64,000 nt of DNA, taken from NCBI GenBank assembly GCA_003153575.1, contig PLZW01000037.1:1-64000 (forward strand). The letters run 5' to 3'. Source of the stretch: Acidimicrobiaceae bacterium (GTDB lineage: Bacteria; Actinomycetota; Acidimicrobiia; Acidimicrobiales; RAAP-2). The number at the start of each line of letters is the position of its first letter. The first letter of the stretch is position 1. The notes beneath the pieces are model-generated. The model did no database searches. It had not been told where the DNA came from and worked only from the letters and a program-made list of their open reading frames with translations. Below are positions 9,773 through 52,746 of the stretch, one piece after another. A program made the position numbers and the translations under genes.

Positions 9773-9833
9773 ACCCCGGCGTCGGCATAGGCTCTGCGCC
9801 GTACCTGTCCACCGGAAGAAATGGGATGACGAC

Positions 9834-10388
9834 ATGTCGAAGGAATGGGGCCCCCTCGGGGCATTGGTCGGCGAGTGGGAAGGCGAAGGCGGGCTCGACA
9901 CCTCGTACTCCCATGCCGAGGGCAAGGTCATCGGCACCCCGTACCTGGAGAAGGTGTCCTTCAAGCCCTTCGGACCGGTCGACAACGGGAACCAGCACCT
10001 CTACGGGCTCGACTACAAGACGGCCATGTGGCGGGGCAGCGAAGAAAATCCGTTCCATACCGAGGTGGGCTACTGGCTGTGGGACGGCGCCACCGGCGAG
10101 GTCCTCCGGGGCTTCACCGTGCCGCGGGGCATCACCGTGCTGGCCGGGGGCCACGCCGATGCCGACGCCAAGGAGTTCACCCTGGTCGCCTCGCTGGGCG
10201 ACGCCCAGTACCCGATCGGCGAAGGCAAGTACCTGACCGTCAACGCCAGTTCGGTCAGCTACGAGGTCACGATCACCCTCGGCGACGACGGCACCTGGTC
10301 GTACGCCGAGAGCACCATGCTCCGCATGAAGGAGATGTCCGACCTCCTCCCCCACACCGACCACAACACCATGCACAAGGTCGGTTGA
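9834..10388 (+). CDS. nitrobindin-like heme-binding beta-barrel protein
   Basis: A 184-residue protein of the FABP-like/THAP4 heme-binding beta-barrel group (nitrobindin relatives). It opens with the family motif GEWEGEG (residues 13-19), then repeated beta strands including EVGYWLWD, and ends with the His-rich segment PHTDHNTMH that contains the expected proximal heme ligand. Nitrobindins bind ferric heme and act on NO or peroxynitrite. This copy lacks any C-terminal targeting tail, unlike its paralogue at 49945, which is fused to a cargo-loading peptide next to an encapsulin. No operon partner is evident. Confidence 0.8.
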   Translation: MSKEWGPLGALVGEWEGEGGLDTSYSHAEGKVIGTPYLEKVSFKPFGPVDNGNQHLYGLDYKTAMWRGSEENPFHTEVGYWLWDGATGEVLRGFTVPRGITVLAGGHADADAKEFTLVASLGDAQYPIGEGKYLTVNASSVSYEVTITLGDDGTWSYAESTMLRMKEMSDLLPHTDHNTMHKVG

Positions 10389-46193: not shown

Positions 46194-46496
46194 ATGGAAA
46201 ATCTCGTCGAATTTGAGCTCCACATCCGGGTGGGTACCCCTAAAACGGCCGTAAGCAGACGACTTGCGGCCGAAGCAGTCGCAGCAGCGAAACTGGCCGA
46301 ACAAGGGCACCTCATCCGCCTATGGAAGACCCCCGACGAATCCCGGGCCCTCGGCTTGTTCCGGGCCGACACCAGGGCCGAACTCGATGCATTCCTAGCC
46401 GACTTGCCCCTGTACGACTGGATGCACATGACCGTCACTGTCCTTGGGCCGCATCCGAATGATCCCGGGGCCCCGCAGGAGATGCCTGGGCCATGA
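46194..46496 (+). CDS. muconolactone delta-isomerase-like protein
   Basis: A 100-residue ferredoxin-like-fold protein resembling muconolactone isomerase (CatC): EFELHIRVGTP at the N-terminus, EQGHLIRLWKTPDESRALGLF and LPLYDWMHMTVTVLGPHPND near the end. CatC isomerises muconolactone in the beta-ketoadipate pathway; here no catA or catB is present, so a related lactone may be the substrate. It overlaps the DUF3237 gene by four bases. Confidence 0.82.
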   Translation: MENLVEFELHIRVGTPKTAVSRRLAAEAVAAAKLAEQGHLIRLWKTPDESRALGLFRADTRAELDAFLADLPLYDWMHMTVTVLGPHPNDPGAPQEMPGP

Positions 46497-46966
46497 GTAC
46501 TCAGCTGCCCGAACCGCGCCTCACGAAGGCCTACCGATTGGAGGCGACCCTCGGCCCGGCGCTCGATGTCGGCGATGTGGACCGAGGCCGACGGGGGATC
46601 GTTCCCCTGACAGGGGGAACCTTCACCGGAACCGCGATGAGCGGAAAGCTGCTGCCAGGGGCCAGCGCCGACTGGCAGATCATCGCTGATGATGGCACCG
46701 CGTTCGGGGACATCCGTTACACGCTCGAGACCGATCGCGGCGAACTCCTTTATGTGCAATCACGAGGAGTCCGGCACGGCAGCGCTGAAGTTCTCGCCGG
46801 ACTTGGCCGTGGGGAGGACATCGATCCCAGCGAGTACGTGTTCCGAACTTCAACCCAGATCGAGACGGCGGCCGCTGATCTCGACTGGCTGAACAAAGGC
46901 GTCTTCATCGGCGTTGCTGGCCGCCAGCCTGGAGGCGTGATCTACGAAACGTACCTGGTCGAATGA
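46493..46966 (+). CDS. DUF3237 protein
   Basis: A 157-residue DUF3237 beta-barrel protein: RLEATLGPALDVGD, GRRGIVPLTGGTFTG and RTSTQIETAAADLDWLNKGVFIGVA. Its function is unknown; it is often found in aromatic or steroid breakdown clusters. It overlaps the isomerase-like gene before it and an SDR fragment after it, both by ATGA. Confidence 0.85.
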   Translation: MSTQLPEPRLTKAYRLEATLGPALDVGDVDRGRRGIVPLTGGTFTGTAMSGKLLPGASADWQIIADDGTAFGDIRYTLETDRGELLYVQSRGVRHGSAEVLAGLGRGEDIDPSEYVFRTSTQIETAAADLDWLNKGVFIGVAGRQPGGVIYETYLVE

Positions 46967-47118
46967 GCCCTGAACGGGCGCGAGGAGTCGCGGTCATCGC
47001 CGGCGTCGCACGGGGTATCGGTGAACGGATAGCGCAGGCGCATAGGCCGGTGACCGTTGAGCGGTTGCTCGGCGATCGGTCGGGGCATCACAGCTCCCTT
47101 AATGGAAGGTCACGATGA
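46963..47118 (+). pseudogene. N-terminal SDR fragment
   Basis: A 51-codon frame that begins like a short-chain dehydrogenase (VAVIAGVARGIGERIAQA, the Rossmann glycine motif) then stops at TGA 47116-47118. It overlaps the DUF3237 gene and the full SDR gene, each by ATGA. It looks like the stump of a deleted SDR whose coupling to the next gene was kept. Confidence 0.5.
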
Positions 47119-47828
47119 GCACTCAACACGAAAAGGTCGCGGTCATAACCGGTGCGTCCCAGGGGATGGGGGCAGGTTTTGTTACCGCATACCGTAAGCT
47201 CGGCTACGCCGTTGTCGCGAGTTCGCGCACCATCGGCGAGTCGCAGGACGCCGATGTCTTAACTATTAGGGGCGACATCGCGGACCCAACCACGGCAGAT
47301 CGTGTCATCGGCGCCGGCGTGGACCGGTTCGGGCGAATCGACACGCTAATCAACAATGCTGGGATCTTCATTGCTGGCCCGTTTACCGACTACACCAAGG
47401 ACCAGTTCGACTCTGTAATCGGGGTGAACCTGACGGGCTTCTTTAGGATCACCCATTTCGCGATTGCCCACATGCTCGAGCAGGGAGGCGGACACGTCGT
47501 CAACATCACCACCGCTCTGGTCGAGCACGCCAACTCCAACGTGCCCTCCGTGCTGGCATCCCTGACGAAGGGCGGCCTCCAGTCCGCCACCAAGTCCCTG
47601 GCCATCGAGTACGCCACTCGCGGCATCCGCGTCAACGCCGTTGCCCCGGGCGTCATCAAGACCTCCATGCACCCCAAAGAGCATTACGAAATGCTCGACA
47701 GCCTGCATCCGGTCGGTCGCATGGGCGAGGTGAGCGACATCGTCGACGCGGTGCTTTATCTAGAGAACGCCCCGTTCGTCACCGGCTCGATCCTCCACGT
47801 CGACGGCGGCCAGAGTGCCGGCCACTGA
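47115..47828 (+). CDS. atypical SDR without the catalytic Tyr
   Basis: A 237-residue SDR: TGASQGMGAGF at residues 13-23, NNAG near 81, NITTALVEH and then VLASLTKGGL where YxxxK is expected. The Tyr position is Ala, so usual dehydrogenase chemistry is doubtful, although the Lys is kept. AAGGTC precedes ATG 47115. I recall other SDRs with the same LASLTK block, which would make it a conserved variant rather than decay, to be checked. Confidence 0.8.
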   Translation: MSTQHEKVAVITGASQGMGAGFVTAYRKLGYAVVASSRTIGESQDADVLTIRGDIADPTTADRVIGAGVDRFGRIDTLINNAGIFIAGPFTDYTKDQFDSVIGVNLTGFFRITHFAIAHMLEQGGGHVVNITTALVEHANSNVPSVLASLTKGGLQSATKSLAIEYATRGIRVNAVAPGVIKTSMHPKEHYEMLDSLHPVGRMGEVSDIVDAVLYLENAPFVTGSILHVDGGQSAGH

Positions 47829-47911
47829 GCCGGAAGCCGTGAACAAGACATCTCTCATCACACGGCGGCGTGGCCAAATCTTCACCCTGGACGACGAGAA
47901 CCCACCAGGGC

Positions 47912-48028
47912 ATGCTGGACACCGACGCCCTGCGCCTGATGGAACAAGGGCAGAAGCAACGGAGCGACGACGACGTCACCGCTTGGGCCGACCCGCCGGC
48001 CTTCACCGACCCTCGCGCCGAACACTGA
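47912..48028 (+). CDS. possible 38-residue remnant
   Basis: A short frame reading MLDTDALRLMEQGQKQRSDD, ending at TGA 48026-48028. It has coding-like codon use but no ribosome site, and is probably the 3' end of a lost gene. No family recognised. Confidence 0.25.
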   Translation: MLDTDALRLMEQGQKQRSDDDVTAWADPPAFTDPRAEH

Positions 48029-48071
48029 CCCATCCCCGGCTCGCGCCAGCGAGCCCCTCGACATCGTTTGG

Positions 48072-48725
48072 ATGCTCACCATGAATGACTCCCGTACCCG
48101 CGTGCCCGTCGACTTCTGGTTCGACCCCGTATGCCCGTGGACCTGGCTGACATCACGCTGGATCTTGGAGGTCGAAAAGGCCCGACCGCTCGCCATCACC
48201 TGGCACGTCATGAGCCTGGCCATCCTCAATGAAAAACGTCTTGATGAGCTACCGGAAGCCAACCGCGACCTCATGGGTCTGGCCTGGGCTCCGGTCAGGA
48301 TCCTGATCGCAGCCGCCCAAGCCCACGGCCCCGGCGTGCTGGAGCCCCTCTACACCGCGCTCGGCAACCGCTACTACCCGCAGCAACAGCCCAAGACCCG
48401 CGTCACCATCGAAGATGCTCTGTGCGATGCCGGACTGCCCGCCGAGCTCGCCGATGCCGGCGATACCGACCGCTACGACGAAGCGCTGCGAGCCTCCCAC
48501 CGCGAAGGCATCACCCTCGTCGGCGCGGACGTCGGTAGCCCCATTATCGCCGTCCCCGGATCCGGCACCGATACTGCCAAGATCGCCTTTTTTGGCCCCG
48601 TCGTCAGCCCCTCTCCGAAGGGCGAAGCAGCAGCCCGCCTGTGGGACAGCACTTTGAGCCTCGTCTCCACACTCGGCTTCTACGAAATCAAGCGCACCCG
48701 CACAGTCGGCCCCCTCTTCGGTTGA
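48072..48725 (+). CDS. DsbA-fold protein, mycothiol-nitroreductase-like
   Basis: A 217-residue thioredoxin-fold protein like the mycothiol-dependent nitroreductase Rv2466c. The active site is FDPVC21-P-W-T24, with one Cys where a CxxC is usual in the relative. Further blocks are TSRWILEVEKARPL and GSPIIAVPGSG. It may reduce or conjugate substrates with mycothiol. ATG 48072 and ATG 48081 are both possible starts. It is followed four bases later by a SnoaL-like gene. Confidence 0.82.
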   Translation: MLTMNDSRTRVPVDFWFDPVCPWTWLTSRWILEVEKARPLAITWHVMSLAILNEKRLDELPEANRDLMGLAWAPVRILIAAAQAHGPGVLEPLYTALGNRYYPQQQPKTRVTIEDALCDAGLPAELADAGDTDRYDEALRASHREGITLVGADVGSPIIAVPGSGTDTAKIAFFGPVVSPSPKGEAAARLWDSTLSLVSTLGFYEIKRTRTVGPLFG

Positions 48726-48729
48726 AATC

Positions 48730-49140
48730 GTGAAACGGAAAGAGTGGACACCGTTGGATGAGGCGAGGCATCAGGCGGAGGCAGTGCATCAGGTCGTGGG
48801 TCGCTGGGTGGCTGCGTTCAACAGCCACAACCCGGCAGAGATGGCCGCCCTGTTCGCGTCGGATGTCCTCTTCCAGGGCCTCGGGCCCGAACCCCTTGTC
48901 GGCCGCGATGCAGTGAGCGATTACTACAATGCCGTTCCCCCCTACCGCCGCGCCGTAGGTGTCGGCGTGCTCCACGCATACGCAATCGGCGACGACGTGG
49001 CCGGCGGCTTTGTAGACGTCACTTTCCGTGACCCGGCGGACTGGGAGGCTCGGGTGTATTTATCCCTGGTCTTGCAGCGCGCTGGGAGCGGCTGGGAGAT
49101 TCGGCAATACCACGTCTCCCGAGTCAGCGACGAGCACTGA
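48730..49140 (+). CDS. SnoaL-like / DUF4440 protein
   Basis: A 136-residue cone-shaped fold of the NTF2/SnoaL superfamily: GRWVAAFNSHNPAEMAALFASDVLFQG, GRDAVSDYYNA and VYLSLVLQRAGSGWEIRQYHVS. The reaction, if any, is unknown. The GTG start at 48730 follows the upstream stop by four bases, so it is probably co-transcribed with the DsbA-fold gene. Confidence 0.8.
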   Translation: MKRKEWTPLDEARHQAEAVHQVVGRWVAAFNSHNPAEMAALFASDVLFQGLGPEPLVGRDAVSDYYNAVPPYRRAVGVGVLHAYAIGDDVAGGFVDVTFRDPADWEARVYLSLVLQRAGSGWEIRQYHVSRVSDEH

Positions 49141-49944: not shown

Positions 49945-50670
49945 GTGATGATCGATCTAACAACTGAGCCTGGCCCGAATGCCGTCGACATCTTCACTGA
50001 GCCTGACGGCGACCCGGACACTCTGGTCAACCTGGGCCCGCTCGGCCCGATGGCCGGCATCTGGGAGGGTGTGCGGGGATCCGACCAACACCCGGTGGCT
50101 GAAGGCGTCGGCAGGGACATCTTCGTCGAGCGGTACGAACTTCAGCCCATCGATCGTCAGACCAATGGCCCGCAGCTGTTTTACGGACTGCGCTACCACA
50201 CCCACATCGTCAAGCCCGGTGAGGTCGAGACCTTCCACGACCAGGTCGGCTACTGGCTGTGGGAACCGGCTGCCGAAGAGATCACTTTCACCCTCGGCAT
50301 CCCCCGGGCTCAGGTGCTCCTGGCCAACGGTCCGGCCGCGGCCGACGCCACCGAGTTCGAACTGCGTGCCACGCTCGGCACCGAGATCTACGGGATCCTG
50401 TCGAATCCGTTCCTCCAGGGCAACTTCCGGACCGTCGACTACCGGATCCACGTCACCATCAACGACGACGGCACCTGGTCCTACGAGGAAGAGGGTCGGC
50501 TCGACATCTCCGATCGCGGCGAGCTGTTCTCCCATCTCGACGCCAACACCCTCACCCGCATCGCACCGCCGACTCCCAACCCCCTCGCCGTCCTCGCAGC
50601 AAGCGCGGACGGCAGCCTCGGGATCGGCGACCTACGTCAGGACAGACAGGAAAGAAGGTCAACGACATGA
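49945..50670 (+). CDS. nitrobindin-like heme-barrel protein with encapsulin cargo tag
   Basis: A 241-residue protein with the FABP-like/nitrobindin heme-binding barrel in residues about 25-207: GPMAGIWEGVRG (GxWxG at 38-42), DQVGYWLWEPA, and the C-terminal FSHLDANTLTRI with the likely proximal His197. After a Pro/Ala linker, the C-terminus carries DGSLGIGDLR at 222-231, which closely matches cargo-loading peptides of family 1 encapsulin cargos, and a charged tail. It should be enclosed in the shell encoded by the next gene, which overlaps it by ATGA. Expected activity is heme-based NO, peroxynitrite or peroxide chemistry (inference). GGAAG lies seven bases upstream of GTG 49945. Confidence 0.85.
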   Translation: MMIDLTTEPGPNAVDIFTEPDGDPDTLVNLGPLGPMAGIWEGVRGSDQHPVAEGVGRDIFVERYELQPIDRQTNGPQLFYGLRYHTHIVKPGEVETFHDQVGYWLWEPAAEEITFTLGIPRAQVLLANGPAAADATEFELRATLGTEIYGILSNPFLQGNFRTVDYRIHVTINDDGTWSYEEEGRLDISDRGELFSHLDANTLTRIAPPTPNPLAVLAASADGSLGIGDLRQDRQERRSTT

Positions 50671-51473
50671 ACCACCTGATGCGCGAGCTGGCTCCCGTCA
50701 ATGATGGTGCGTGGACGCAGATCGACGAGGAGGCAACCCGCTCCATCAAGCACTTCCTGGCCGCACGCCGGCTGGTCGACTTCGCCGGACCGCTTGGCTG
50801 GGAGCTGTCCGCGGTGGCCACCGGTCGCACCGAACCGGTCGACGGCACACCACTCGGCTCGGTCGAGGCGGTCCGCCGACGCGTGCTCCCACTGATCGAA
50901 CTGCGGGCGCCTTTCACCCTCGACCGTGACGAACTCGACATCGTGGAACGGGGCGGAAGTAATCCCGACCTCCAGGCCATCATCGACGCCGGCCGGGCGG
51001 CCGCCCTGGCCGAGGACCACCTGGTATTCCACGGGGACACTGCGGCCGGCATGACCGGGATCATCGCCGCCTCACCCCACGAGGCCGTCGCCATCGGCGA
51101 CGACTTCAGCGCCTATCCCGAGCAGGTTGCTAAGGCGGTGACGGTGCTCCGCTCGGCAGATATCGCCGGCCCCTACGCCATTGCCCTGGGCACCGATTGC
51201 TATACGGGTGTGACCGAGACGATCGAACGTGGGGGCTACCCGGTGCTCGAGCACCTGGGTCAATTGCTGGGAGGCCCGGTCGTCTGGGCACCTGCCACCC
51301 ATGGGGCCGTCGTCCTCTCGCAGCGCGGCGGCGACTACACCCTCACCGTCGGCCAGGACTTTTCGATCGGCTTCCGCCACGCCACCGGGGACAGCGTCGT
51401 GCTCTTCATCGAAGAGAGCGTGGCATTCCAGGTGAACACCCCCGAGGCCGCTGTCCATCTCGCCTATTCCTGA
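50667..51473 (+). CDS. family 1 encapsulin shell protein
   Basis: A 268-residue HK97-fold shell protein of the linocin-M18/CFP29/encapsulin family. It begins MNHLMRELAPVNDGAWTQI, followed by EEATRSIKHFLAARRLVDFAGPLG, LIELRAPFTLDRDELDIVERG, AAALAEDHLVFHGD, GPYAIALGTDCYTGV and VVLSQRGGDYTLTVGQDFSIGF, in the usual order and length. Sixty or more copies form a protein nanocompartment that encloses cargo with a C-terminal tag. The ATG at 50667 overlaps the stop of the tagged heme-barrel gene, so both are made together. No peroxidase or ferritin-like cargo is nearby. Confidence 0.95.
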   Translation: MNHLMRELAPVNDGAWTQIDEEATRSIKHFLAARRLVDFAGPLGWELSAVATGRTEPVDGTPLGSVEAVRRRVLPLIELRAPFTLDRDELDIVERGGSNPDLQAIIDAGRAAALAEDHLVFHGDTAAGMTGIIAASPHEAVAIGDDFSAYPEQVAKAVTVLRSADIAGPYAIALGTDCYTGVTETIERGGYPVLEHLGQLLGGPVVWAPATHGAVVLSQRGGDYTLTVGQDFSIGFRHATGDSVVLFIEESVAFQVNTPEAAVHLAYS

Positions 51474-51759: not shown

Positions 51760-52746
51760 TCATGGTTGAAGCGGGGTCATGGTGGCATGCATTTTGACGA
51801 ATTGCATCACGGGGGCAGTTTCAATGTGGGTGAGGCCGTCAAGGGCGATCATCTCGCCGGTGAGGTACTCATACAGCGAGCGGTCGTCTGGGCAGACCAG
51901 TGCCGCAACCAGGTTGGTGGACCCGGTGGTGGCGGCGACGAAGGGGAAATCGGGCCGACTGGCCAAGGCCTGTCCGATATCTCTCAGATTTGCGGGGACC
52001 ACCGACATCCACAGCAGGGCCTGAGGGCGGGTCGTAAATGCGTCGCTTGCGAGGTCCAAGTCGAAGAAGAGGGCGTCTGAGGCAATGAGTTCGTCGACTC
52101 GCCGTCGGACGGTCGACTCGTGCCAATGGGTGCGTGCAGCCAACTGGCGATAGGTAGCGCGGCCGTCGTCGGCAAGGGCCTGGACGAGCGGCCAGTCGGA
52201 GTCCTGCAGCTTGGCCTTCGGGCGATCGATCGGCGGCCTGTTCCGTGCCGGAGCGAGGAGTTGGGCAATCTCCCCGCGGCTGAGGTCGCTCGGGCCAGGC
52301 GGAGCCGACAATCCGGTGGCGAAAAGGTGGAGGAGACAGTACGCCTCGTAGTCGACGATCTGTCGACCGACAGAGAGCTGGCTGAGCAGCACTGGAGTTC
52401 GCTGTCCGCCGTCGCGCGAGTGAATCATGCTGAAGATCTCCGTTCCCCCCGAGGTCAGCTGTATCCAGGAGGTGTCCGGACGCTGCGCGAGTTTCGCGGC
52501 GACGGTCGGTGCGGACCCCGGAGCGCAACGGATCCGGACGGCCCAGTCGGACTGGCCGAGCCGCTGGGAATCGAGCTGGCCTACAACACGAAGAATGCGA
52601 TCGTCGAACAGACGCCGGTAGCGACGGGAGACGGTCTGCTCGGAGGACCCTAGGACCTCAGCCAACCGGCTGAACGGCGCTCGCGGATCGACGTAAAGCG
52701 CCTGGATGATTCTTCGGTCCAAGACGTCAAGGTTGGTGGATTCCAT
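51760..52746 (-). CDS. Lrp/AsnC-family regulator with two HTH domains
   Basis: A 328-residue protein built from two Lrp-like halves. The first winged HTH is LDVLDRRIIQALYVDPRAPFS and SEQTVSRRYRRL (residues 6-45), and the second is DWPLVQALADDGRATYRQLA and HESTVRRRVDELI (about 184-222), each followed by a ligand-binding region. It is longer than the single-domain Lrp (about 150). It is divergent from the DHA2 exporter gene with an 85-base gap and probably controls it. Confidence 0.82.
   Translation of the reverse strand: MESTNLDVLDRRIIQALYVDPRAPFSRLAEVLGSSEQTVSRRYRRLFDDRILRVVGQLDSQRLGQSDWAVRIRCAPGSAPTVAAKLAQRPDTSWIQLTSGGTEIFSMIHSRDGGQRTPVLLSQLSVGRQIVDYEAYCLLHLFATGLSAPPGPSDLSRGEIAQLLAPARNRPPIDRPKAKLQDSDWPLVQALADDGRATYRQLAARTHWHESTVRRRVDELIASDALFFDLDLASDAFTTRPQALLWMSVVPANLRDIGQALASRPDFPFVAATTGSTNLVAALVCPDDRSLYEYLTGEMIALDGLTHIETAPVMQFVKMHATMTPLQP

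Follow-up and report, generated by a model that had tools for sequence, protein, structure and literature searches.

A family 1 encapsulin operon of Acidimicrobiaceae with a nitrobindin-fold beta-barrel as its probable cargo

What does this encapsulin shell enclose? We consider it very probable that two overlapping genes in the window (the whole stretch of 64,000 nucleotides analysed here, from a bacterium akin to uncultured actinobacteria of soil) form a family 1 encapsulin operon in which a nitrobindin-fold beta-barrel protein is the dedicated cargo, a claim that concerns the cargo relationship and not its chemistry. The barrel probably represents a new, undescribed cargo class of family 1 encapsulins. 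The original prediction for this locus, an encapsulin with a nitrobindin-fold cargo, is well supported by the fold of the barrel, its C-terminal tail, its position in the operon, the recurrence of the pair and the absence of the tail from homologues in genomes that have no shell.

The two open reading frames (Table 1) bear out the coordinates and the ATGA overlap that had been given for the pair. The barrel frame begins with GTG at 49945 or, alternatively, with ATG at 49948. As far as gene arrangement goes, the overlap makes an operon of the cargo and shell genes, and the two proteins would be translated as a coupled pair; the purine-rich AGGAAAGAAGG lies 8 bases 5′ of the shell ATG. The region upstream of the operon (46194-49140) encodes muconolactone isomerase-like, DUF3237, SDR, Rv2466c-like mycothiol-dependent nitroreductase and SnoaL-like proteins. 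On the minus strand, a gene convergent with the shell gene (51760-52746) encodes a 328-aa Lrp/AsnC-type protein with two HTH matches, which is a possible regulator candidate. A second barrel paralogue (9834-10388, plus strand), with 40% identity and without a tail, lies about 40 kb from the cargo gene; counting this paralogue and the one at G000:C4, the assembled genome to which the window belongs (G000) contains three PF08768 matches.

Table 1. Features of the proposed cargo-shell operon in the window
Feature	Position	Strand	Description
Barrel ORF (proposed primary cargo)	49945..50670	+	241 aa; predicted THAP4/nitrobindin-fold beta-barrel; PF08768 at residues 29-205; C-terminal targeting tail
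Encapsulin targeting peptide GSLGIGDLR	50611..50637	+	Consensus GSLxIGSLK (from parts of PMC10960027); L, I, L and basic residue at shell-binding positions
Shine-Dalgarno-like AGGAAAGAAGG	50648..50658	+	Purine-rich; in codons behind the targeting peptide; read from the sequence, putative function
ATGA, cargo stop/shell start overlap	50667..50670	+	From ORF coordinates; putative translational coupling
Family 1 encapsulin shell ORF	50667..51473	+	268 aa; PF04454 and NF041155

Judged by its sequence, the downstream frame is a family 1 encapsulin shell protein, scoring 282.7 bits against PF04454 (cut-off 24.3) and 300.3 bits against the family 1 encapsulin model NF041155 (cut-off 100). Passages of PMC10960027 place three hydrophobic residues of the targeting peptide in a pocket of the shell, with Lys346 on Asp38 and backbone contacts to Arg34 and Asp229; the picture in the available part of PMC12140327 is similar. 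Following the Klebsiella numbering of the former source (R34, D38 and D229), the pocket residues of the present shell are by alignment R34, D38 and D231, the last taking the place of Klebsiella D229; none of the three varies among the 15 shells aligned. By comparison with solved homologues, the flexible C-terminal GSLGIGDLR would dock through its L, I, L and basic residue into the inner pocket at R34, D38 and D231, and the shell protomers would close around copies of the barrel.

How closely does the tail resemble known targeting peptides? It differs at two positions (D replaces S, R replaces K) from GSLxIGSLK, which passages of PMC10960027 give as the targeting consensus of DyPs, and it is one residue away from GSLGIGSLR, the peptide of the Haliangium Flp cargo in the same source. 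The original prediction had the protein ending with DGSLGIGDLR; the peptide is present as described, but ten residues (QDRQERRSTT) intervene before the stop. In 200,000 shuffles of the 34-residue C-terminal stretch, the looser pattern Lx[IVL]Gx[LI] arose 1,023 times and SLGIGxL 2 times, and the tail therefore exceeds chance. The back-translated LGIGxL pattern has nine matches in the assembled genome (76% complete). Apart from the cargo, a stop follows within 35 codons at two of these; the first belongs to a frame of 28 codons, the second to a hydrophobic, anchor-like end. Thus, the cargo tail is the sole encapsulin-type tail among the nine.

The pairing of barrel and shell recurs in related genomes. 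We read the upstream gene at 28 shell loci: 21 from the family sample, in which 34 genomes have a shell, three from elsewhere in the order, and four reached via named loci with a tail, a biased route that contributed two barrel operons; in the remaining 13 family genomes and the other order genomes, barrel adjacency was judged by coordinates only. The gene directly upstream of the shell encodes a barrel at eight of the 28 loci. A ferritin-like protein is encoded there at 18 loci, mostly with a GSLGIGSLK-type tail, neither protein at two (G001 and G003), and both at none. Six of the eight barrel operons show a four-base overlap of stop and start; in the other two, these touch or are no more than three bases apart. 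Loss of the tail from orthologues had been named in advance as evidence against the proposal; we found L-x-I-G-x-L kept in all eight shell-adjacent homologues, with a variable linker and a variable extreme end.

Might barrel and shell be chance neighbours with no physical partnership? THAP4-like barrels are common, PF08768 being present somewhere in 52 of the 80 shell-bearing genomes of the family and order, and at least 72 of these 80 have no barrel beside the shell. However, direct upstream adjacency is found in eight genomes from at least three genera, with the stop and start overlapping or no more than three bases apart, and the tail is present on all eight adjacent barrels and on none of the paralogues in the same genomes. 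Because the pairing recurs, we reject chance adjacency, the probability of which appears very slight.

The extent of this recurrence was assessed in several samples. Among 61 genomes (the window's own and 60 relatives), 35 have a barrel match, with distant paralogues counted, and 17 have a shell; among the 172 genomes of the family sample, the shell is present in 34 and this type of barrel (E ≤1e-45) in 23. By coordinates, the barrel directly precedes the shell in G000, G008, G012, G013, G030 and G173. No further PF08768 match adjoins the shell in the 80 shell-bearing genomes of the family and order; the closest is in G217, whose shell is preceded by a ferritin-like gene and followed, about 4 kb further downstream, by a barrel with 38% identity. 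A scan of named genomes, considering the best 80 of 578 relatives (49 Pseudomonadota and 26 Actinomycetota), revealed barrel-shell adjacency in three, each with a tail: Acidimicrobiaceae palsa_688 (L075), an Actinomycetota MAG (L078) and L081, which has the same sequence as G173. The other 77 have no shell inside the fetched flank (at most 4 kb, shorter at contig ends); in this group the tail occurs on L070, L071 and L074 (= G062) and on the broken L072 (= G014), and 73 have no tail. In the phylum sample of 396 genomes, PF04454 matches occur in 39, of which 33 lie outside the order (including G705, whose match is below the cut-off), and in none of these 33 do the coordinates place a PF08768 gene as close as 12 kb to the shell. 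In nine genomes of family f89, a PF08768 gene of nitrobindin length is found 12.6 to 24.3 kb from an encapsulin gene, an arrangement of synteny and not of an operon.

We then considered whether the tail tracks the shell. Every one of the 13 genomes in which we found a tailed barrel also has a shell. The two genes are adjacent in eight, and the shell lies on another contig in G024, G062, G551, G552 and G014. For G551 (L070) and G552 (L071), the shell was looked for only after the tail had been seen. Because four of the 13 came to light as best hits of the tailed alignment, the figure of 13 of 13 does not come from an even sample. Among family genomes with untailed barrels only, the shell is present in two of 13 (G021 and G092). 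Comparison of these counts (shell/no shell, 13/0 against 2/11) gives a Fisher p of 2.0e-5, which becomes 4.2e-5 without the two no-shell genomes that are less than 75% complete and 2.2e-4 when the count is restricted to the family sample (9/0 against 2/11). An earlier count of 12/0 against 3/10 (p 1.1e-4) and the barrel tree left out 18 of the 112 locus rows as duplicates, near-duplicates or fragments, including G014, G092, G113 and G151; in the later count the first three were restored and G151, whose contig ends before the tail, stayed out. The barrel tree implies six changes of the tail, and the well-supported branches leave only three independent pairs, for which a sign test is not significant, so the p values are weakened by kinship. 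Several of the sampled genomes are incomplete, including the window's own.

The LxIGxL motif is absent from the untailed homologues and, among the 112 locus rows, is matched by the tailed set only. Paralogues without LxIGxL occur even inside shell-bearing genomes: G000 (C4, 71% identical to the window protein) and G008 (C94, 69%) each have a tailed copy beside the shell and an untailed paralogue elsewhere. The tailed barrel of G014 (L041, L072) contains one in-frame TAA, and a tail, SLGIRSLR, can be read beyond this stop.

A different origin of the tail can be envisaged, in which it is a leftover stub from a ferritin-like cargo that has been lost, or the barrel is loaded merely as a passenger and its encapsulation serves no function. 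Such a stub does exist in G001, where GLAIGSLRRESR stands before a shell without a barrel and a 131-nt stretch spanning the shell start matches, at 73%, the G013 sequence that runs from the last part of the barrel gene into the shell gene; moreover, barrel and ferritin-like genes use the same slot. Against this, the tail is kept on barrels that do not lie on the shell contig (intact in G024, G062, G551 and G552, broken in G014), and the core of the peptide is conserved while the linker and the end vary. We regard this alternative as improbable and retain the barrel as the dedicated cargo. In this shell lineage, it would take the slot that is held by a ferritin-like cargo in most relatives. On a shell tree of 28 rows, the barrel-associated shells and the two empty shells fall together on one side of a branch (93/76, not starred), and the ferritin-like association amounts to one change. 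The lack of a barrel at the two empty shells of this lineage, G001 and G003, speaks against the proposal.

Do other candidate cargos occur in the same genomes? A ferritin-like query gave matches in seven of 15 genomes. In G024, G014, G062, G551 and G552, a ferritin-like gene is located at the shell and the tailed barrel elsewhere; G013 has the reverse arrangement, with the barrel at the shell and the ferritin-like gene (L189 2028-2477; tail DSLGIGDLRV) away from it. The ferritin-like gene of G001, also away from the shell, has a weak RLDIGRI end. Among the eight genomes with barrel operons, a ferritin-like gene elsewhere was found only in G013, and the miss in G000 is weak because that genome is 76% complete. 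Tailed barrel and tailed ferritin-like protein thus coexist in six genomes (G013, G024, G062, G551, G552 and G014, the last with the broken barrel copy). Because both proteins carry the same type of tail in several genomes, mixed loading of the two is, to judge from these sequences, likely where both are kept. A broader proposal, that one shell type forms an interchangeable compartment for two cargos, a haem-type barrel and a ferroxidase of the ferritin-like kind, packed alone or together by the same tail, seems rather unlikely to us; if true, it would bring iron storage together with the capture of NO, peroxynitrite or haem in one shell. A DyP as the real cargo is disfavoured, being present in G000, G008, G012 and G024 among the 15 genomes and lacking the motif in all four.

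The barrel matches PF08768 (THAP4_heme-bd) with 62.4 bits (cut-off 25), and all 50 members of the wider barrel alignment (A2) match that profile too. An AlphaFold2 model built from 50 aligned translations of the window and the loci has a pLDDT of 92.4 and a pTM of 0.84. Confidence is lower at the two ends (pLDDT 66 at residues 1-10 and about 60 at residues 221-241), and the value for residues 221-241 is consistent with a mobile tail. The top solved match among those listed is human THAP4 nitrobindin 3ia8 (Foldseek E 4.5e-8), which in VIA gives Z 19.3 and an rmsd of 2.4 over 161 aligned residues. It is followed by Rv2717c of M. tuberculosis (2fr2, Z 18.3), the Arabidopsis nitrobindin entries (Z 17.0-17.8), Rv0813 (2fwv, Z 16.5) and the spirocyclases OssO and OlmO (Z 13.9), in a ranking that covers the listed families, with other families possible. 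Sequence searches of solved structures returned no nitrobindin, whether the query was the cargo, the tailed alignment (A1), the wider alignment or the window paralogue (here taken as 9825-10385), and all that one such search brought up were weak galectin rows (best E 0.11). The barrel is therefore a remote branch, and because these searches missed the nitrobindins, the claim of the fold rests on the predicted model. The barrel, of predicted nitrobindin fold, is longer and belongs to a divergent branch.

Would such a barrel carry haem? Nitrobindins have been described as binding haem via one proximal His and as scavenging NO and peroxynitrite in vitro (passages of PMC9599043, PMC6275384, PMC7763097 and PMC10094804); in human Nb the proximal haem-ligating residue is His155 (PMC6275384, in part). 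In the barrel, His98 and His197 are both invariant in 50 of 50 aligned members. A profile alignment (hhalign) with seven canonical relatives pairs His98 with the His that is invariant in their H-x-E-x-G stretch, and His197 falls, in the ungapped profile alignment, on the residue preceding the canonical C-terminal His. A one-residue bulge would restore the ligand; a true shift would turn His197 away from the haem. The canonical stretch of the GTWxGxGHGEYPTI type has YPTI or YPGI in six of the seven aligned canonical relatives (YPGI in one), and the cargo, which has no YPTI, reads GIWEGVRGSDQHPV at that place. In the same search, tailed copies score 59.6-73.6 bits against PF08768, compared with 109.9-177.1 for canonical-type copies, and the barrel scores 41.5 bits against the NCBIfam haem-protein model NF040572, below its cut-off of 150. 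Because of the His197 offset and the missing YPTI, we give haem binding somewhat less than an even chance. By analogy, we propose, equally tentatively, that the enclosed barrel may hold haem or some hydrophobic ligand that is similarly planar and may remove reactive nitrogen or oxygen species or store haem.

The barrel might instead be truly encapsulated but bind a fatty acid or a different small hydrophobic molecule, so that the compartment would store or convert this ligand. FABP-like fatty-acid binding has been proposed for Rv0813c. Rv0813 and the two spirocyclases, which have a like fold, match the model at the Z scores given above, and the divergence of the branch, the absence of the YPTI stretch and the position of His197 one residue off the haem ligand are in keeping with such a role. 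On the other hand, the nitrobindins proper top the structural matches (Z 17.0-19.3), and both the invariance of the two histidines and the place of His98 on the canonical His speak against it. We hold this role, like haem binding itself, to be a serious possibility that falls a little short of even; either ligand would leave the barrel as the cargo.

How does this operon compare with known encapsulin systems? It resembles the ferritin-like (Flp/EncFtn) encapsulins in shell family, cargo-shell order and type of targeting peptide, but its cargo is an all-beta barrel in place of a helical ferroxidase, and the barrel shells lie on their own branch. With the DyP encapsulins it shares a cargo gene before the shell and a GSLxIGSLK-type tail (passages of PMC10960027), whereas its cargo belongs to a different protein family and the DyPs of the genomes searched here are untailed. 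The supposed role would be like the oxidative and nitrosative stress role reported for hemerythrin encapsulins (parts of PMC8346489 and PMC8229669), in which, however, the cargo is a di-iron helical bundle and not a beta-barrel of putative function. PF08768 and the fold are common to the barrel and the nitrobindins (Rv2717c, At1g79260 of A. thaliana and the human THAP4 domain); in contrast to these, from which it differs with 14-19% identity in structural alignments, the barrel is longer (177 residues over 151 profile positions), lacks YPTI, has its C-terminal His one out of register and bears an extra targeting tail.

The original prediction had also suggested that such a cargo is not an established system. 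This agrees with the family 1 systems in the available part of PMC8346489, namely DyP, ferritin-like, IMEF, hemerythrin, bacterioferritin, Flp-fusion and cytochrome-fusion/NIR-HAO systems and 90 unassigned ones, which may include such an operon. It also agrees with a literature search, covering few subscription papers, that returned nothing joining encapsulins with nitrobindin, THAP4 or Acidimicrobiia, and with the accessible portions of the encapsulin literature on cargo, heme, nitric oxide and genome mining, where no such system appeared among the matches listed. Nitrobindin function itself is called still obscure in a passage of PMC9599043. If true, a nitrobindin-fold cargo would mean that one more chemistry makes use of this packing signal, and a natural exchange of barrel and ferritin-like genes at one locus would show how the content of encapsulins changes.

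Some further features of the shell loci were observed. In G001 (L047 8443-8922), an orphan targeting-peptide-like stub precedes a shell without a recognised cargo. An SSB-like gene adjoins the G001 shell in a stretch that is conserved in G013 and G003, and an MsrB-like gene is located near the shell loci L047, L048 and L043 of G001, G003 and G013, respectively; both genes were named by eye from their translations.
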